Positions 1,314-64,000 of a DNA stretch of 64,000 nt are shown in pieces (position 1 is the first letter of the stretch; each line of letters starts with the position of its first letter). Location: assembly GCA_964006375.1 (NCBI GenBank), contig OZ023267.1:31725094-31789093 (forward strand), read 5' to 3'. The stretch comes from Tillus elongatus. Its lineage: Eukaryota; Arthropoda; Insecta; Coleoptera; Cleridae. A model generated the notes under the pieces. That model ran no database searches. It saw only the letters and a list, made by a program, of their open reading frames with translations, and was not told the DNA's origin. Made by a program: the position numbers and the translations under genes.

Positions 1314-1556
1314 TTGCACAAAAATCTTTCGATTGATAGGGTAGATCCGGTTCCATCTAGTCCATTGTTTCATCTTAGAAGGAATATTTTATAACGACAC
1401 ACAATTTCACAAAATCAGGTATACAGTTTTAATCACAGGGATTTAAATCTCAACAGTGGGGTCTGTCTGTATACCTTTGTAAAGGACGCTGTGCGCAACT
1501 GCTTGGCAACATATAAATAGTAGTTCCAGTTTTTATTCCCCAGTTTATTCATCGCT

Positions 1557-1583
1557 CTGATGACGCTAACGCTATTAGCGAAA
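1557..1583 (+). ncRNA. Hammerhead-like core in right outer arm
   Basis: CTGATGA is followed by CGCTAA, a 5-base loop, TTAGCG and AAA. An inverted homologue lies at 51-81 on the minus strand with CTGATGA, a GCTA stem and GAAAC. As in the 1104 motif, one base is extra between the CUGAUGA box and the stem if GAAA is kept. I see no convincing stem I. Best read as a relic of a Penelope-like terminal sequence. Confidence 0.25.
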
Positions 1584-1602
1584 TGATCGTCGGGTCTAAA
1601 AA

Positions 1603-1811
1603 CTGTATTGTGATGAATTGGGGGCTCCAAATTGTACTTATCAGTGCACATCACAGGTTCCAACATATGCTCATTTAACACATTCCGTGTGAGCCTCTGT
1701 TATAGCTTGAGTTTTTAAATCTGTATATCCTTTCTTAAATAATACGTAATGTAATTTGTGTTATTTGTGGTTATTTTCGACAGTGTAAACCTTTTATATA
1801 GTTACTGGTAT
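1603..1811. other. AT-rich spacer, nothing recognised
   Basis: No repeat homology, long open frame or RNA signal seen. Confidence 0.5.
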
Positions 1812-2178
1812 AGAACCTCGGTGGTTCAGGGGTAAGAACGTGTGCCTTTGAACCGAAGGGTACTGGGTTCGATCCCAGGGTACTCCTTTCACTTTTTCAG
1901 TACATACTGTAATATTAACATCAACCGAGGTTCTGGCATTGTATTTGAGCAAGTTGAATGTCTGCACGTTCCGCCCTTCGGAGGGGGCGTAAAGCCGTCG
2001 GTCCCGTGTCCATACGATGTTGGGCACGTTAAAGATCCCCACCCTCCTTACAGAAAGGCAGCGGTTCGGCACAATTTCCAGGATAGGGAGGTGAAACTGC
2101 TCCCTGGTGTCGGTGATTGGCCATAGTCGCGGAAATAGGCCGACGTTAAAGAAACAAAACACACACACACACACACAG
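1812..2178 (+). mobile_element. tRNA-derived SINE, full-length type
   Basis: The head (1812-1887) resembles a tRNA with an A-box-like GGTTCAGGGGTAAGAACG and a B-box GGGTTCGATCCC. It is followed by a body (to about 2150) shared with three other copies in this window, and a GC-richer middle block containing GGGCACGTTAAAGATCC. It ends in an (AC)n tail (2157-2178). The head lacks a complete cloverleaf and flows directly into the body, so it is a SINE rather than a tRNA gene. Transcription by RNA polymerase III from the internal boxes is expected for the family. Confidence 0.85.
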
Positions 2179-3054
2179 TTACTGGTATTTTTTATTGGTA
2201 TAATTTAACATCTATAATGTGCATATTTAATATATTGTAAATCTACTTGTTATCTATGACCCGTGGTTATGTAAGAATAATTGTTTTAAAAGGCCTTAGT
2301 TTGGAGATTTTAAATGGACATCATTGTGCGTTTTTAGACGCAAAAGCATAAAATTTTGTTGTCACTTTTTGAACTCATTGCACCAAAAAAAAAGGTAATT
2401 ATTCTCTGTAATAATCAATATACTTGGTATATGAATATAAAGGTATAGAGTTATTTTGAAAAGATTCTCCATTCCCATGCGAATAATTATTTTTTAAATA
2501 TTTAGAATTTTCTTTCTTTCCTTCTTCTTCTTTCGAGATGTGCATTTTTTAATATACCGTACGTAATACAGAAGGAACTTGCGTAAGAAATATAAAAAAT
2601 AACTTTTTATTTGAGAAAATCCCAAAATGAAACACAAAATTTTTCGGGACAATTTGGTCTAATTTTTTAAATAATAAACTTATCCAAGCGATTTGCAAAA
2701 GGAATATGCGTACCTAATTTCGCTCCATTATCTGTTTAGTTGTCATGGTGATATTCAGCATACGTAATATAAAAGAAACTTGCGTAACAAATATAATCAC
2801 CAGCTTTTTATTTCGAAGATAAGAAAACATTTCCGAAAGGAAACACAAAACTTTGCCGGCCAATTTGGTCTGATTTTCTTTTGAGTTATCGTAGTGACGT
2901 TCACTAAAAATACATTTGCCACGCTCCCTTGTACAATATTAACTGCGGTGAAGTTATGGTATTTGATCCACTTTAAATTAAAACTATACTGCCTTAAGTT
3001 CAAGTACACAATAGTTTTAAATTGTCATTGTTTTTTTATAATTTAATATCTGTA
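2179..3054. repeat. AT-rich region with two direct repeats
   Basis: Two related blocks at about 2558-2670 and 2758-2884 (offset near 200 bp) share GAAACTTGCGTAA-type, CTTTTTATTT and CAATTTGGTCT motifs. A piece around 2685-2705 (TATCCAAGCGATTTGCAAAA) matches the dispersed repeat that flanks (TA)n at 17.4, 57.4 and 60.3 kb. No gene seen. Confidence 0.5.
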
Positions 3055-3390
3055 TATTTTCGCGACTATGGCCAATCACCGACGCCAATGAGTAGTTTCA
3101 CCTCACTATCCTGAAATCTTTACCAAACCCCTGCCTTGGTGTAAGAAGGGTAGGGATCTTCAACGTGCCTAACATCGCACGGGCACGGGACCGACGGCAC
3201 TACGCCCATTCCCAAGGGTGGAATGTGCAGCCATTCAACTTGCTCGAATACAATGCCACAACCTCGGTTGGCGTTAATTTTACAGTACAGTATGTACTGA
3301 AAAAGTGAAAGTGGAACACTGGGAATCGAACCTAGTACCCCTCGCTTCAGAGGCACACGTTCTTACCCCTGGACCACCAGAGGCTCATAA
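3055..3390 (-). mobile_element. tRNA-derived SINE, minus strand
   Basis: Reverse-oriented member of the family at 1812-2178. The tRNA-like head is at 3300-3390 (B-box complement GGGAATCGAACC) and the body runs down to GCGACTATGGCCAATCACC near 3062. The middle GC-richer block is conserved. Divergence between the two copies is moderate, so they are old independent insertions. Confidence 0.85.
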
Positions 3391-3780
3391 GTTTAAAGTT
3401 TATAACATGCATGAACAATAGTGAGCAATCTATTAGTAGTTCTGCAATTTAGAATGGATTATTTCCAATTAATTTGAACACAAAGTAGCTTGTAGGGATA
3501 GAAAATTAAATTATTTGTTAATTTGGTTAAATTGGTAATCACTAATAAAATTAGGTCACGACTATCGATTTGTGTCAATAAATAGGGTTGCCTAAAGGAA
3601 AATTGAATTTCTTAATTTAGTCGCAACATTGTCGCGGTAAATAAGTAATAAAAATTTAAACCAGTCTTAAAAATATAGTAATAGGTTACGTGTGGTCAAA
3701 ATTGTCAGTGCTGCAAAATAATATACAGTAAAGCGTCAGTAAAGTTAACTGGTTACTGTAAATAGTATTTGCAGCTTATC
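3391..3780. other. AT-rich spacer, nothing recognised
   Basis: No open frame or repeat could be supported. Confidence 0.5.
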
Positions 3781-54682: not shown

Positions 54683-56302
54683 TGAAACTCACTCTGGATA
54701 TTGGTTCTAGGGGGGCCATTTCGCGCTTATTTGAAGACATTTTTTTGAAAATGCAAAAGTCGGCATCTTTTCATTAGTGATTTTTTAAAGAAAATTCACT
54801 AAAAGGACTTATTTGATATAATTTTTTATATGGAAATTCACTACCGTCACACACTTTCTGCATCAAGACTTTTTTTGGTTTGATTAAAAGGTCACAAGAG
54901 ATATAATTTCCATAAGCTCAATTCTAAGATAATTCTTGAGAAACTGAGAAGATACTGACCATCGGCAGAAATAGCTGAATATAGCAGTAGGAAGTACCTA
55001 CCTATAAGTACATTTGTGAATTTGTGAAACTAAAAGGTCGCCCCTGTGTATATATTTGTATGTAATATGATTGGTTTCACCAAGTCAGAGTGCCCATCAC
55101 CAATAGAGTAGAAATACTTATTAGTTGTTAGTGTTCAAAAACTACGCTAGTATCTAGGTATCAGCTAAGCGTACCGGGAATACATTGCTCGAGTTCACTA
55201 GGCGCCAACAGTTTAATTTGGTGTGTAAGCGTATGCGTCCACCAGTCCCGCTGAGCTTTTTTTGGAACTTAACTATTGTCAATTTGTCCAAGCGGAATGA
55301 CAGACAAACGTTTTACAATAGTACTTTGAGTGAACTGTGCGTTCATCAGTCTCCAACCGCTGAAATAAATCAATAGTCAGCAGATGAGCGCTTAAACCCA
55401 GATGTTGGCGCCTGGTAAACTCTGTGTTTCGAAAAATTATATAAGCTCAAACCTGCAAGATTAAATAAAGTAGAAAAATTCACCACACAAATAAGCGAGA
55501 ATATTTTGTTATGGAGATGTTACATATATAGATAACACATAAAGCGTTTTAAAATCAACATAGGTATCTAATTGAAATAAGACGTGACTAAACAAAAACG
55601 TAACAAAAATTTAGGTTCTATTCATCATGAGCTCCATTTTAGATAAAATATGTTCTAACAAGCCTTTCGATTGATGTAATTTTGATCACAAAATGCCATT
55701 CTTTGCAATATAGATAAAGATTAGAGCACGCCACTAAAAATATTTTGATTTAAGTACAACCTAAGCGAATATAAAATAAACCTAAGTCTCTACAAAATAA
55801 TTCAATAAATCTGTAGACAGATGGAGAATGTTAAATAAACTGTAAGATAACTAACCTGCTGCATATCAGCCCTTTTGGTAAAACTTCCATCCTTTTTAGC
55901 TGTTGACAAAACATCACAAACACTGTTTAGTTCACTCACTAACATTAATAGTCGTCCATTCACTGTGTCGGCATTAGGGCTCTATTGAAACTAAGACAAA
56001 GCCGCGCTCGATGTCTAATTGAATTAATGTAGGCATTAGGCAGAGGCATTCGTCAGGCTTAAAAGTGTTTGTTATATTAATGCAGCACTATTTACATTGA
56101 ATTAAGACATTAAAACTACCAATTACAATACGCAAATATATCACAGAAATATGTAGGTAGGTGTTGGCAGCAGACCCTAAAATTGACGACGGGGTTTAGA
56201 ATGCAAGAATTGAGGTATAATTTAACGGCAGAGATTTATGCTCTCGTGGGTCGATAAATGGATATTAATATTACTAAAACAAATAAGTTAAAAAAAAAGT
56301 CT

Positions 56303-56596
56303 GGACGGAGCAAGTGCGTTATGGAAGTGAATTTTTATTAAAATGTTTTTAATAGCAAATATGTCTTTTCAATGCAAGCAGCCATCAATCTGGTTAGTAG
56401 TATAACCTATATAGGAGAAACAATGTGCCATATTTTATTAAAATAACTTATGGCTTGAAACTGTAAAAAAAATGCCGGATATAAACATAAAATGTTGGTT
56501 TCCTAGCCAATAAGCCTTAGTTTAATAGCAAATTGAGTTATTGAAATTTGAAGCATTTAATGAAAATTTGATACCAAAACGCACTTACTGCGTCAC
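56303..56596 (+). mobile_element. MITE (GCAGCAAGTGCG family) in unit B
   Basis: Same ends and internal sequence as other copies; the left end has GGACGGAG. Confidence 0.8.
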
Positions 56597-57480
56597 GATT
56601 TTTTTTTTCTTAAAAACATATTTCGACAAACAATGCAATAAATAAGGGTGTTCGAAACAGAAATTGTATGATCACAAACGACTTATGGGCCAGCCTGTGA
56701 TTGTCAAAATAATTTTATAAGATGCAGCTCAAGGTACCCTATAATTAGCTTATACAATGTTTTCTCGTAATAATTATATTGAGTTTTGCCGTAGAAATGC
56801 GTCGCTCTGTATATATGTAAACAGATAAAAACTGAATGTAAACCCGGATATGGATTCTAGGGGGCCTAGTTTGCGCTCATTTGAAGAAATCTTTTTAAAA
56901 TTCTAAATGCGGTCTCCTCATTAACGAATTTTTTCTACGAAATTAGATTAAAATTATAGATCGTTAACCATAAACGTAACTAAGACTACCGCCAAAGCAT
57001 CAGAAAAAGGATCTATTTGAAATGAATTTCCTGTAAATATTTTAGTAAAATAAAAGACAATGACAGTTGAAGCTGAACCCAGGCGTTTTCAGAACACTCT
57101 TCTTCCGACATTTTCCTTACATAATTCGTATTTGTTTTAGGTTCTTTGCCTAAATGTTGCCAAAATTGACGTTTAAAATCGCGACGTTTGAGATTTTGGG
57201 GAAAACCCCAATTTTGTTTAAATTCGGATAACTTGTTCTTCTTTAAACTTACAGACACAAGCTTTGGTACATAGTTCGCACTTTATAATACAAACACCAT
57301 TGCCAAATTTGGTTGCCCTTACTTTGTTGTTTCCAGAGATATATATTTTTTTGAAATACAAAATTTTCATGGAAACCTGGGACAATTTTTTATACTAACG
57401 AACTTATCTAAGCGACTTGCAAAAGGAAGGTATTCAGAAACTTTGATCAAAATCAATTATTTTTTGAGTTGTCGGTGTGA

Positions 57481-57483
<3 letters not shown>

Positions 57484-57567
<84 letters not shown>
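57484..57567. repeat. (TA)n microsatellite
   Basis: TA core of repeat unit B. Confidence 0.97.
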
Positions 57568-57571
<4 letters not shown>

Positions 57572-59205
57572 ATATAAAAATTGAAACTCACCCTGGATAT
57601 GGGTTCTAGGGGGCCTAGTTCGCGCTTATTTGAAGAAATTTTTTTCCATATTTAAAAGTCGGGATCTTTTCATTACTGATTTTTTTTTTAATTCACTAAA
57701 AAGACTTATTTGATATTAAAAACGTTTTTATGAAAATTTACTACCATCACACACTTTCTGCGTCCAAACTTTTTTTGTTTGATTAAAAGGTCGCAAGAGT
57801 TATAATTTTGATAAGCTCAATTGTGAGATAATTGTTGAGAAACTGAGAAGTTACTGGTCATCGGCAGAAGTAGCTGAATATAGCAGTAGGAAGTACCTAC
57901 CTATAAGTACATTTGTGAAACTAAAAGGTCGCCCCTGCGTATATATTTGTATGTAATATGATCGGTTTCACCAAGTCAGAGTGCCCATTACCAATAGAGT
58001 AGAAATACTTGTTAGTTGTTAGTGTTCAAAAACTACGCTAGTATCTAGGTATCAGCTAAGCGTACAGGGAATACATTGCCCAGGTTCACTAGGCGCCAAC
58101 AGTTGAATAGGTGTGTAAGCGTATGCGTTCACCAGTCCCGCTGAGTTTTTCCTGGAACTTAACTATTGTCAATTGGTCAAAACGGAATGACAGACAAACG
58201 TTACACAATAGAGCTTGGAGTCAACTGTGCGTTCATCACTTTCCAACCGCTGAAATGAATCAATAGTCAGCAGATGAACGCTCAAACCCAGATGTTGGCG
58301 CCTGGTAAACTCTGTGTTTCGAAAAATTATATAAGTTCAAACCTGCAAGATTAAAGAAAGTAGAAAAATTCACTACACAAATAAGCGCGAATATTTTGTT
58401 ATGGTGATGTCACATATTTAGATAACACATGAAGAGTTTTAAAATCAACATAGGTACCTAATTGAAATAAGACGTCACTAAACAAAAACCTAACAAAAAT
58501 GTAGGGTCTATTCATCATGAGCAAAATTTTAGATAAAATATGTTCTAACAAACCTTTCGATTTATTTAATTTTGATCACAAAGTGCCATTATTTGCAGTA
58601 TAGATGAATATTAGAGCACGCCACTAAATATATTATAATTTAAATACAACTTAAGCGAATAATAAATAAACCTAACTCTCTACAAAATAATTCAATAATT
58701 CTGTAGACAGGTGGACAGCGTTAAATAAACTTTAAGATAACTAACCTGTTGCATATCAGCCCTTTTTGTAAAACTTCCATCGTTTTTAGCTGTTGACAAA
58801 ACATCACAAACACTGTTTAGTTCACCCACTAACACTAATAGTCGTCCATTCACTGTGTCGGCATTAGGGTTCTATTGAAACTAAGACAAAGGCGCTATCG
58901 ATGTCTAATTGAGTATTAAATGCCTACATTAGTAGGCATTAGGCAGAGGCATTCGTCAGGCTTAAAAGTGTTTGTTATATTAATGCAGCACTATTTACAT
59001 TGAATTAAGACATTTAAACTACCAATTACAATACGCAAATATATCACAGAAATATGTAGGTAGGTGTTGGCAGCAGACCCTAAAATTGACGACGGGGTTT
59101 AGAATGCAAGAATTGAGGTATAATTTAACGGCAGAGATTTATGCTCTCGTGGGTCGATAAATGGATATTAATATTACTAAAACAAATAAGTTAAAAAAAA
59201 AGTCT

Positions 59206-59499
59206 GGACGGAGCAAGTGCGTTATGGAAGTGAATTTTTATTAAAATGTTTTTAATAGCAAATATGTCTTTTCAATGCAAGCAGCCATCAATCTGGTTAG
59301 TAGTATAACCTATATAGGAGAAACAATGTGCCATATTTTATTAAAATAACTTATGGCTTGAAACTGTAAAAAAAATGCCGGATATAAACATAAAATGTTG
59401 GTTTCCTAGCCAATAAGCCTTAGTTTAATAGCAAATTGAGTTATTGAAATTTGAAGCATTTAATGAAAATTTGATACCAAAACGCACTTACTGCGTCAC
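59206..59499 (+). mobile_element. MITE (GCAGCAAGTGCG family) in unit C
   Basis: Essentially identical to the copy in unit B. Confidence 0.8.
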
Positions 59500-60383
59500 G
59501 ATTTTTTTTTTCTTAAAAACATATTTCGACAAACAATGCAATAAATAAGGGTGTTCGAAACAGAAATTGTATGATCACAAACGACTTATGGGCCAGCCTG
59601 TGATTGTCAAAATAATTTTATAAGATGCAGCTCAAGGTACCCTATAATTAGCTTATACAATGTTTTCTCGTAATAATTATATTGAGTTTTGCCGTAGAAA
59701 TGCGTCGCTCTGTATATATGTAAACAGATAAAAACTGAATGTAAACCCGGATATGGATTCTAGGGGGCCTAGTTTGCGCTCATTTGAAGAAATCTTTTTA
59801 AAATTCTAAATGCGGTCTCCTCATTAACGAATTTTTTCTACGAAATTAGATTAAAATTATAGATCGTTAACCATAAACGTAACTAAGACTACCGCCAAAG
59901 CATCAGAAAAAGGATCTATTTGAAATGAATTTCCTGTAAATATTTTAGTAAAATAAAAGACAATGACAGTTGAAGCTGAACCCAGGCGTTTTCAGAACAC
60001 TCTTCTTCCGACATTTTCCTTACATAATTCGTATTTGTTTTAGGTTCTTTGCCTAAATGTTGCCAAAATTGACGTTTAAAATCGCGACGTTTGAGATTTT
60101 GGGGAAAACCCCAATTTTGTTTAAATTCGGATAACTTGTTCTTCTTTAAACTTACAGACACAAGCTTTGGTACATAGTTCGCACTTTATAATACAAACAC
60201 CATTGCCAAATTTGGTTGCCCTTACTTTGTTGTTTCCAGAGATATATATTTTTTTGAAATACAAAATTTTCATGGAAACCTGGGACAATTTTTTATACTA
60301 ACGAACTTATCTAAGCGACTTGCAAAAGGAAGGTATTCAGAAACTTTGATCAAAATCAATTATTTTTTGAGTTGTCGGTGTGA

Positions 60384-60385
<2 letters not shown>

Positions 60386-60470
<85 letters not shown>
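60386..60470. repeat. (TA)n microsatellite
   Basis: TA core of repeat unit C. Confidence 0.97.
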
Positions 60471-60474
<4 letters not shown>

Positions 60475-61743
60475 ATATAAAAATTGAAACTCACCCTGGA
60501 TATGGGTTCTAGGGGGCCTAGTTCGCGCTTATTTGAAGAAATTTTTTTCCATATTTAAAAGTCGGGATCTTTTCATTACTGATTTTTTTTTTTAATTCAC
60601 TAAAAGACTTATTTGATATTAAAAACGTTTTTATGAAAATTTACTACCATCACACACTTTCTGCGTCCAAACTTTTTTTGTTTGATTAAAAGGTCGCAAG
60701 AGTTATAATTTTGATAAGCTCAATTGTGAGATAATTGTTGAGAAACTGAGAAGTTACTGGTCATCGGCAGAAGTAGCTGAATATAGCAGTAGGAAGTACC
60801 TACCTATAAGTACATTTGTGAAACTAAAAGGTCGCCCCTGCGTATATATTTGTATGTAATATGATCGGTTTCACCAAGTCAGAGTGCCCATTACCAATAG
60901 AGTAGAAATACTTGTTAGTTGTTAGTGTTCAAAAACTACGCTAGTATCTAGGTATCAGCTAAGCGTACAGGGAATACATTGCCCAGGTTCACTAGGCGCC
61001 AACAGTTGAATAGGTGTGTAAGCGTATGCGTTCACCAGTCCCGCTGAGTTTTTCCTGGAACTTAACTATTGTCAATTGGTCAAAACGGAATGACAGACAA
61101 ACGTTACACAATAGAGCTTGGAGTCAACTGTGCGTTCATCACTTTCCAACCGCTGAAATGAATCAATAGTCAGCAGATGAACGCTCAAACCCAGATGTTG
61201 GCGCCTGGTAAACTCTGTGTTTCGAAAAATTATATAAGTTCAAACCTGCAAGATTAAAGAAAGTAGAAAAATTCACTACACAAATAAGCGCGAATATTTT
61301 GTTATGGTGATGTCACATATTTAGATAACACATGAAGAGTTTTAAAATCAACATAGGTACCTAATTGAAATAAGACGTCACTAAACAAAAACCTAACAAA
61401 AATGTAGGGTCTATTCATCATGAGCAAAATTTTAGATAAAATATGTTCTAACAAACCTTTCGATTTATTTAATTTTGATCACAAAGTGCCATTATTTGCA
61501 GTATAGATGAATATTAGAGCACGCCACTAAATATATTATAATTTAAATACAACTTAAGCGAATAATAAATAAACCTAACTCTCTACAAAATAATTCAATA
61601 ATTCTGTAGACAGGTGGACAGCGTTAAATAAACTTTAAGATAACTAACCTGTTGCATATCAGCCCTTTTTGTAAAACTTCCATCGTTTTTAGCTGTTGAC
61701 AAAACATCACAAACACTGTTTAGTTCACTCACTAACACTAATA

Positions 61744-63183
61744 GTCGTCCATTCACTGTGTCGGCATTAGGGTTCTATTGAAACTAAGACAAAGGCGCTA
61801 TCGATGTCTAATTGAGTATTAAATGCCTACATTAGTAGGCATTAGGCAGAGGCATTCGTCAGGCTTAAAAGTGTTTGTTATATTAATGCAGCACTATTTA
61901 CATTGAATTAAGACATTTAAACTACCAATTACAATACGCAAATATATCACAGAAATATGTAGGTAGGTGTTGGCAGCAGACCCTAAAATTGACGACGGGG
62001 TTGAGAATGCAAGAATTTAGGTATAATTTAACGGCAGAGGTTTATGCTCGCGTAAATCGATACATAGATATTAATATTACTAAAAGAAATAATTTGAAAA
62101 AAGTCTGGACGCAGCAAGTGCGTTATGGAAGTGAATTTTTATAAAAATGTTTTTAATAGCAAATATGTCATTTTAATGCAAGCAGTCATCAATTTGGTTA
62201 GCAGTATAACCTATATAGTAGCAACAATGTGCCATATTTTATCAAAATAACTTATTGCTTGAAACTGTAAAAAAAATCTGAAAATAAACTTAAAATGTTG
62301 GTTTCCTAGCCAACAAACCTCAGATTAATAGCAAATTGAGTTATTGAAATTTGAAACATTTAATGAAAATTTGATACCAAAACGCACTTACTGCGTCACG
62401 ATTTTTTTTTTCTAAAAAACATATTTCGACAAACAATGCAATAAATAAGGGTGTTCGAAACAGAAATTGTATGATCACAAACTACTTATGGGCCAGCCTG
62501 TGATTGTCAAAATAATTTTATAAGATGCAGCTCAAGATACCCTATAATTGGCTTATACAATTTTTTCTCGTCTCTTGTATAATAATTATTATATTGAGTT
62601 TTACAGTAGAAATGCATCACGCTCTATATATGTAAACAGATAAAAACTGAATGTAAACCCGGATATGGATTTTAGAGGGCCTAGTTTGCGCTCATTTGAA
62701 GACATCTTTTTAAAATTGTAAATTCGGTGTCCTCATTAACGAATTTTTTCTACGAAAATCAGCTTAAAGTTATAAATCGTTAAACCATAAACTTAATTAA
62801 GACTACCGCCAAAGCATCAGACAAAGGGTCTATTTGAAATGAATTTTCTGTAAACATTTTAATACAATGAAGGACAGTGACAGTTGAACCTGAAACGCAA
62901 GGGTTTTCAGAACACTCTTCTTCCGACATTTTTCTGACATAATTTGTATTTGTTTCAGGTTCTTTGCCTAAATTTTGCCAAAATTGACGTTTAAAATCGC
63001 GACTTCGGGAAAACACCAATTTTGTTTAAATGCGCATAACTTTTTTGTCTTTAAACCTACAGACCCAAATTTTGGTACGTAGTTCACGCTTTATAATACA
63101 AACACCGGTGCTAAATTTGGTTGCGCCTACTTTGTTGTTTTCGGAGATATATTTTTTTCCGAAATACAAAATTTTACAGAACA
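61744..63183. repeat. 2.9-kb repeat unit D, truncated
   Basis: The first roughly 250 bp are identical to unit C, then it diverges to about 93%. It stops near 63183, before the (TA)n core, where a different satellite begins. Confidence 0.9.
62107..62399 (+). mobile_element. MITE (GCAGCAAGTGCG family) in unit D
   Basis: Ends GGACGCAGCAAGTGCGTTAT and AACGCACTTACTGCGTCAC, internal sequence closest to unit A. Confidence 0.8.
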
Positions 63184-63480
63184 TAGTGTGATGTAAGACA
63201 GGAGTTGCGATCTCGTTGCGAAAGTAAGTAGTATGTTGTCACGACAGCTCCAGGTATCACAAAATGTTATAAAATAGAGACTATGTACAACCAACTAATA
63301 ATTTTGTGAATTGTCAGCCCTGGCCCATTTCTTTCCTAATATAGGGGTAATTTATGTAAGGCTAGATGAGCTGCTGTGACAACATACTACTTGGTTCCGC
63401 AACGAGAATGCGCCTTGTGTCATACATCTCACTATGTGCTGTGAGGTTGGCTACCATAGCCGCATAACTTTATAGGTGTT

Positions 63481-63559
63481 TTCTCGCTCTAATTAGTATA
63501 CCCTACTGACGAGCTCCAATTAGAGCGAAACCGGTCTACGGTTCTGATTGTGGTGAGAA
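63481..63559 (+). ncRNA. Type I hammerhead ribozyme, copy 1 (core intact)
   Basis: CTGACGA (63506-63512) is followed by stem II GCTC/GAGC (63513-63516, 63523-63526; loop CAATTA), GAAA (63527-63530), a palindromic ACCGGT stem III and the cleavage triplet GTC ending at 63536. Stem I has a proximal helix (63500-63505 with 63537-63542, one C-C mismatch), an internal loop, and a distal helix (63481-63493 with 63547-63559, with wobbles and one mismatch). All conserved catalytic bases are present. The very short loop-less stem III suggests cleavage as a dimer or in tandem transcripts, as reported for other animal satellite hammerheads. Self-cleavage would release unit-length RNA. Confidence 0.85.
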
Positions 63560-63760
63560 TACATCTAGAAATGGGCCAGGGCTCACAATTTATAAAATTG
63601 TTAGTTGGTTGTATGTAGTCTCTATTTTATAACATTTTGTGTTATTTGGAGCTGTCGTGACAACCTACTACTTGCTTTCGCAACGAGATCGCAACTCCTG
63701 TATAACATTTCACTATGCTGTGAGGTTCGCTGCAATAGCTGTATTACTTTATAGGTGTTT

Positions 63761-63837
63761 TCTCACTGCAATTAGTATACCGTACTGACGAGCTCCAATT
63801 AGAGCAAAAGCGCGATACGGTTCTGATTGTAGTGAGA
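63761..63837 (+). ncRNA. Type I hammerhead, copy 2 (core mutated)
   Basis: The fold is kept: stem I proximal ACCGTA/TACGGT is a perfect 6 bp (63779-63784, 63816-63821), distal TCTCACTGCAAT pairs with ATTGTAGTGAGA (63761-63772, 63826-63837), and stem II is GCTC/GAGC. The core is damaged: GAAA is AAAA (63806-63809) and the GTC site is CGA (63813-63815). It should not cleave. Confidence 0.8.
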
Positions 63838-64000
63838 TTACATCCAGCATAACACACATTAACCCTATATTAGGGAAGAAATGGGCCAGGGCTGACAATT
63901 TATAAAATTGACCAGGTTTGACAATTTACAAAATTGTTATTTGGCTGTACAGTCTCTATCTTATAACATTTTGTGTTATTTGGAGCTGTCGTGACAACAT

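Follow-up and report, generated by a model that had tools for sequence, protein, structure and literature searches.

At the right-hand edge of a 64,000-nucleotide stretch of DNA from the beetle Tillus elongatus (the window, meaning the whole of that stretch), a short run of repeats with hammerhead ribozyme motifs raises the question of what kind of element it is and by what machinery such elements spread. The initial annotation described it as a tandem satellite encoding a self-cleaving ribozyme. We think it rather probable that the feature instead represents a single inserted retrozyme of the animal (non-LTR) type, in which a non-coding unit of ~312 nt carries a type I hammerhead, and that this retrozyme is mobilised by Penelope-like machinery priming both ends of the target.

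Judged by its sequence, the hammerhead is real. Copy 1 (63481..63560, forward strand) has an intact catalytic core, and the core parts named in the initial annotation are located at 63506-63536: CTGACGA (63506-63512), a 4-bp stem II made by GCTC (63513-63516) and GAGC (63523-63526), GAAA (63527-63530) and GTC (63534-63536), with a predicted self-cleavage site (GUC / U, 63536..63537, forward strand) placed after 63536 by its position relative to the core. Together with a stem I open at its ends, these supply the CUGANGA sequence, stem II, GAA and NUH triplet by which a type I hammerhead is recognised. The initial annotation is supported in taking this for a short tandem repeat that, like an animal retrozyme, carries a type I hammerhead. 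The two-part stem I that had been described holds in its distal portion, where 63481-63496 and 63544-63559 form 15 of 16 pairs including G-U (hand count), but the proximal six base pairs are reduced in copy 1 to five of six by a mismatch between C63503 and C63539. Copy 2 (63759..63840, forward strand) keeps all six proximal pairs and is degenerate in its core, GAAA having become AAAA and GUC having been lost. Given the mismatch in the one and the broken core in the other, neither copy looks fully active. Stem I contains an internal loop (UAU/U) and loop II is present as well, the two being candidate elements of a loop-loop contact.

Helix III consists of ACCGGT (ACCGGU; 63530..63535, forward strand), a perfect palindrome without a loop, and does not close within one molecule; in the minimum-energy monomer folds of three copies, the ACUG/CUGA letters pair with the CGGU side instead. 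Because helix III is palindromic and loopless, cleavage probably takes two strands, and it would then be expected to depend on RNA concentration or on tandem transcripts. The best Rfam match of copy 1 is to HH9, an amniote intron ribozyme. At the gathering threshold Rfam gave zero matches in the window and in 17 other loci, so an E-value search was adopted, in which copy 1 is found by covariance with 29.2 bits (E=5e-5 in 1,001 bases) but stays under the gathering score of 52, and copy 2 has E=0.1. The motif shares with this model (RF02275, Hammerhead_HH9) the core, stem II and the CC/GG of helix III, whereas the 5-nt helix III loop of HH9 is absent here. At E up to 0.05 the model matches four of seven other loci (L004, L024, L026, L075) and none of L016, L096 and L102. 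MicroRNA matches of the long inverted arms are spurious.

The two hammerhead copies lie in an insertion of ~879 bp (63176 to ~64054; GC 0.40) in which an inverted arm stands head-to-head with about two direct units. The inverted arm occupies 63176..63371 on the minus strand (unit positions m123..m6), with a 3' terminus as its outer end (63176), which falls at site A, one of two preferred termini defined below; 63177-63332 is 89% complementary over 156 nt to 63567-63722. The direct arm, ~2 tandem units on the forward strand, occupies 63368..64000 and continues to ~64051-64054 (also L002 1432-2118), where it too ends at site A, which makes the element A/A, one of two such among the two-armed elements mapped. 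Repeat unit copy 1 (63437..63717, forward strand) measures 281 bp, ~30 fewer than the 312 positions of the family profile. The repeat spacings of 279-281 and 336 come close to the units of 281 and 334 bp originally given, but 63176-63371 is an inverted copy and no direct unit; likewise the array does run past 64000, as had been expected, but stops at ~64051-64054, ~50 bp beyond the window edge, where similarity to the unit ceases. No frame of at least 100 aa overlaps 63176-64000, and neither a reverse transcriptase nor an endonuclease is encoded there; a recognisable target duplication was not found around it, the longest flank match being 5 bp.

Directly downstream, L001 ~1400-3500 (window ~64400-66500) holds a broken transposase-like sequence, piggyBac-like by eye. 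Elsewhere the window contains an RVT_1 fragment, a ~2.57 kb direct duplication (56029-58597 and 58932-61500; 99.9% identity, offset 2903 bp), the second copy of which may extend beyond 61500, where the compared stretch stopped, and a tRNA-like sequence at 1815-1882 (20.2 bits against an Rfam gathering score of 29, E=0.5), perhaps a tRNA-derived SINE. A second inverted-repeat element, at 50-1588, has Penelope-type hammerhead motifs (CTGATGACGCTAAC..AGCGAAA) near both ends (81- and 1557+), a degenerate hammerhead motif at 1105 and, by eye, a Penelope-tail-like stretch after 1588; Rfam at E up to 1 listed no hammerhead within it. The TA microsatellites of the window were considered as Penelope targets and rejected, one of 16 arrays adjoining a Penelope-like end, at 1105.

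When the 1.72-Gb assembly was searched for the family, a 31-letter core pattern, CTGANGAGCTCYAATTAGAGCGAAACCGGTC, whose two degenerate positions were picked after copies had been viewed, gave 1,808 + 1,734 = 3,542 genome matches and the reversed control none, a copy number that sets the motif above chance; a search with the unit returned 3,701 first-look candidates, 40 of which were scored, with 84 matches. The family profile of 312 positions derives from 23 real units and was doubled for mapping. The family agrees with animal non-LTR retrozymes in its low-GC tandem units of between 150 and 450 bp with a type I hammerhead, in its many copies and in target duplications longer than 4 bp where these are present. 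All core letters are retained in 22 of 52 distinct copies, and the ACCGGT of helix III in 35 of them. Stem pairing over the 52 copies is 91.4%, which only equals the maximum of 200 column shuffles (mean 90.9%), and covariation within the family is weak, with C54-G114 / T54-A114 standing out (35 and 10 of 51). Position m91, the G of GAAA, is another letter in 28% of 82 copies, often A; as m91 lies in a CpG, decay of the CpG after insertion is possible.

Loci L001-L095, minus eight (seven overlapping others, and L027, which repeats the coordinates of L026), left 87 to be mapped, a non-random sample in which L002-L045 come from the unit search and L046-L095 are the first core-pattern places listed on contig C1. 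With five locus-edge clusters and four short ones left out, 93 elements in 84 loci passed. In orientation 45 are head-to-head (-+), 25 minus only, 23 plus only and none tail-to-tail (+-), and a hand count of core neighbours less than 1 kb apart among the 100 cores listed gives eight head-to-head, three same-strand and no tail-to-tail pairs. The tandem satellite array of the initial annotation thus gives way to a different picture: the 93 elements are dispersed, their same-strand arms are short (the longest of 139 is 829 bp, ~2.7 units), and the head-to-head inversions and, in some, target-site duplications therefore point to single insertion events.

These insertions have two preferred 3' termini, site A at the end of ..TTACATCTCACTATG and site B at the end of ..ACATCTAGCCTTACATA, separated by ~145/167 nt. 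The intervals assigned to A and B, which cover 68 of 312 positions and were set after some printed ends had been inspected, take in 107 of 138 3' termini (A 60, B 47, other 31) and 14 of 48 5' starts (A 6, B 8, other 34). In the hold-out L076-L095 (20 elements), unseen when the intervals were fixed, 23 of 32 3' termini (A 11, B 12, other 9) and two of eight 5' starts are at A or B, and the two-armed elements comprise four A/B, one A/A, four B/other, two A/other and one other/other. Because site A sits at the rotation point of the profile, the mapping was repeated with the profile cut at m215 and tripled, and the 92 elements of this control have 107 of 136 ends (A 59, B 48, other 29) and 13 of 48 starts (A 6, B 7, other 35) at A or B. 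The two ends of an insertion tend to differ: the 45 two-armed elements divide into 19 A/B, two A/A, one B/B, 13 A/other, nine B/other and one other/other, and where both ends are at A or B there is one of each in 19 of 22 (p=0.0012, shuffled labels), or 19 of 23 in the control mapping (p=0.003). The neighbourhood of the cleavage site (m95-106) holds only two of 136 ends, and 74 of the 139 arms exceed 312 bp, which makes it unlikely that these were copied from a cleaved monomer with priming at its own 3' end; as template, a circle or an uncut multimer would either of them do.

Target-site duplications accompany some of the copies. A stretch of at least 12 bp is common to both ends in nine of the 93 elements, as compared with three of 4,000 mismatched left/right pairs. 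Clean duplications of 12-15 bp are found in seven (L012, L018, L044, L056, L058, L075, L079), all of them two-armed and six of them A/B, and the other two are doubtful, L061 lying inside a TA microsatellite and the stretch of L055 overlapping the element. The remaining 84 have no common flank of at least 12 bp, which limits the duplication test and may be due to divergence.

The main rival to a Penelope-like mover is that a LINE-type reverse transcriptase moves the retrozyme and that the head-to-head elements are ordinary twin-primed 5' inversions, which we consider unlikely, if the least so of the alternatives. The length of the duplications and the 5' truncation fit it, the window holds the RVT_1 fragment mentioned above, and LINE twin priming would also give the pattern of the 22 of 45 two-armed elements with exactly one end at A or B; these elements count against the Penelope reading, as do the 31 of 138 3' ends at neither site, the window insertion itself, an A/A exception with no recognisable duplication, and an A-B spacing of ~145/167 nt where a Penelope tail has ~34 nt. 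Twin priming fixes one end only, however, whereas in a further 22 of the 45 neither end lies outside A and B, and most of these have one of each; moreover the printed ends have no consistent poly-A, though L047, L061 and L070 adjoin T or TA runs. Distinctly less probable is that retrotransposition proceeds as we propose but the inverted arm arises when cDNA or template primes itself at a palindrome, rather than by priming at both ends. Stem I of the hammerhead is a long near-palindrome (m38-130), and the arms meet within 20 unit positions at 12 of 45 head-to-head junctions (5.9 expected), so that self-priming could explain a minority; yet the other 33 junctions join unrelated positions, the median overlap is 2 bases, and an inverted arm made by self-priming would not have its outer terminus at one of the two sites.

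Two explanations remain, and both are largely refuted, the first of them for the loci sampled. A plain tandem satellite with a relic hammerhead, propagated through unequal exchange or by way of DNA circles, would agree with units standing in tandem and with an intact core in only 22 of 52 copies, but the sampled loci show short dispersed insertions with two preferred termini and clean target duplications in seven, and no long tandem array, which leaves this account very improbable there. Slighter still is the chance of a MITE-like DNA transposon with the inverted arms as its terminal inverted repeats and a hammerhead enclosed between them by chance: the ends of the window copy are indeed matching and inverted (63176 and ~64051), but 48 of the 93 elements are one-way, with 34 of their 48 5' starts outside A and B, and the ends are different in 19 of the 22 two-armed elements that have both at A or B. 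Given the A/B ends and the one-way elements, the family does not have the same inverted terminal repeats at both ends that define a TIR transposon.

Penelope-like elements, the source of the machinery we favour, are present in the same genome. Of 14,221 first-look candidates for the GIY-YIG domain, 150 were scored and all 150 exceeded the cut-off. A Penelope-like protein fragment found here has its best named relatives in Aromia moschata and Molorchus minor (~55% identity), both longhorn beetles. Among the 150 scored places there are, by eye, three pairs of opposite-strand neighbours less than 5 kb apart, all minus-then-plus; two of the three were examined, having been chosen for orientation, and the head-to-head form of L096 and L097 is consequently not independent. 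L096 combines inverted arms, whose longest ungapped piece is 1,233 nt (99%), with a GIY-YIG match (4.5e-8) and a YVDD motif, a reverse transcriptase signature; Pfam recognised no reverse transcriptase domain in the L096 fragment, while several relatives of the Penelope-like fragment do carry one. On one side the arm of L096 stops at ..GTGTACTTATT, on the other ~34 nt beyond that point (the 'tail'); the target duplication is 12 bp (TCTAATTATTGA), and each arm has its own minimal hammerhead, which includes the loopless palindrome ACGATCGT. The other insertion examined, L097/L100/L101, has the same short and ~34-nt-longer end types as L096, and a clear duplication is absent from it (5 bp).

A further insertion, L102 (149-1121), selected for its strand pattern among the listed places of a Penelope tail word, consists of 181-bp Penelope pLTR/tail units, about four in tandem, which carry a ACGATCGT-type hammerhead, and of an inverted head-to-head arm; its ends are unequal and have 15 bp of flank in common. 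The idea that its 181-bp unit forms a large family was rejected, the exact junction 38-mer occurring once in the genome. Three Penelope-derived insertions here thus have unequal ends like those of the retrozyme, in examples selected as head-to-head. The tail word itself occurs 2,207 + 2,270 times (reversed control 0), and opposite-strand neighbours less than 3.5 kb apart among 100 listed places comprise two minus-then-plus and three plus-then-minus pairs (hand count), so that tail words reveal no clear orientation rule for Penelope copies in general; such a count misses any arm that lacks a tail, the word being a marker of the tail alone. The Penelope 3' region has no similarity above shuffles to the A ends of the retrozyme, and short words that seemed by eye to be common to the ends of both were dropped for that reason.

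Our confidence in Penelope-like mobilisation is reduced because the examples were chosen by orientation and the orientation of the tail words is mixed. As we envisage it, the repeat would be transcribed, two hammerheads would pair through the palindromic helix III and then cleave, and the monomer would be circularised. A Penelope-like reverse transcriptase/GIY-YIG endonuclease would cut both target strands, and copying would begin from each target 3' end inside the RNA, mostly at site A on the one and at site B on the other; the two cDNAs, often of more than one unit, would join head-to-head, and repair would leave a duplication of ~12 bp. More tentatively, and with the balance slightly against it, we suggest that the retrozyme RNA, probably as a circle, serves the Penelope-like machinery as a dedicated substrate in which two start sites are programmed. 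Of the two reverse transcriptases in a single integration complex, one would initiate at A from its target end, and the other at B from the opposite one. A clean insertion would then be a head-to-head A/B pair, and L102 a circle-sized piece of Penelope inserted in the same way.

Purified Penelope-like protein behaves in a manner that bears directly on this scheme, since both strands of the target are cut and extended by it; synthesis begins internally on the RNA, at two neighbouring sites used alike on either strand, and what lies between these sites is the 'tail' (PMC11167929). In the same work the hammerhead cut only with protein present and insertion in vitro was unaffected by hammerhead mutants, from which it follows that cleavage may be unnecessary. 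According to PMC3846280, head-to-head copies of Penelope are the most frequent, with 8-10-bp duplications and the tail on one arm, and the inverted arms are there attributed to self-priming at palindromes. PMC7229834 and PMC7761336 both propose that animal retrozymes are moved by Penelope-like elements, on the grounds of co-occurrence and common hammerheads. PMC7761336 also cites earlier work in which the minimal hammerheads of Penelope cleave in dimeric form, and it terms those without helix III type I as well. Among titles and the openings of abstracts, in a search with most subscription papers outside it, we found no report of head-to-head retrozyme insertions or of two retrozyme start sites, and no beetle hammerhead appeared by title among the matches listed for hammerhead ribozyme, beetle and Coleoptera.

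Set beside known systems, the family resembles the animal non-LTR retrozymes of coral, mussel and axolotl, which (PMC7229834) are likewise low-GC tandem repeats of ~150-450 bp with a type I hammerhead and thousands of copies that coexist with Penelope-like elements. It differs from them in its loopless helix III (that of axolotl has one or two pairs with a tetraloop), in that about half of its mapped insertions are head-to-head and in its two preferred termini; the words 'inverted' and 'head-to-head' are absent from the main text of that paper as far as it was available. The cave-cricket repeat pDo500 (PMC2837043) likewise belongs to an insect and has a hammerhead, but it is described as a satellite and its stem III folds on a single sequence, whereas the present repeat is dispersed and its helix III loopless. 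With Penelope-like elements, built of a pLTR, an inverted copy and a 'tail' (PMC11167929, PMC3846280), the family has in common the head-to-head arrangement, duplications of ~8-12 bp, unequal 3' ends and a minimal hammerhead, the window copy being head-to-head but A/A; it departs from them in lacking, in the window copy, any frame for a reverse transcriptase or endonuclease, and in its two sites, which lie ~145/167 nt apart, not ~34. As to the agent that spreads animal retrozymes, the insertions described here carry a signature, namely head-to-head arms, two fixed sites and ~12-bp duplications, that fits the biochemistry of Penelope (PMC11167929) and makes the link testable with purified protein and short RNAs.
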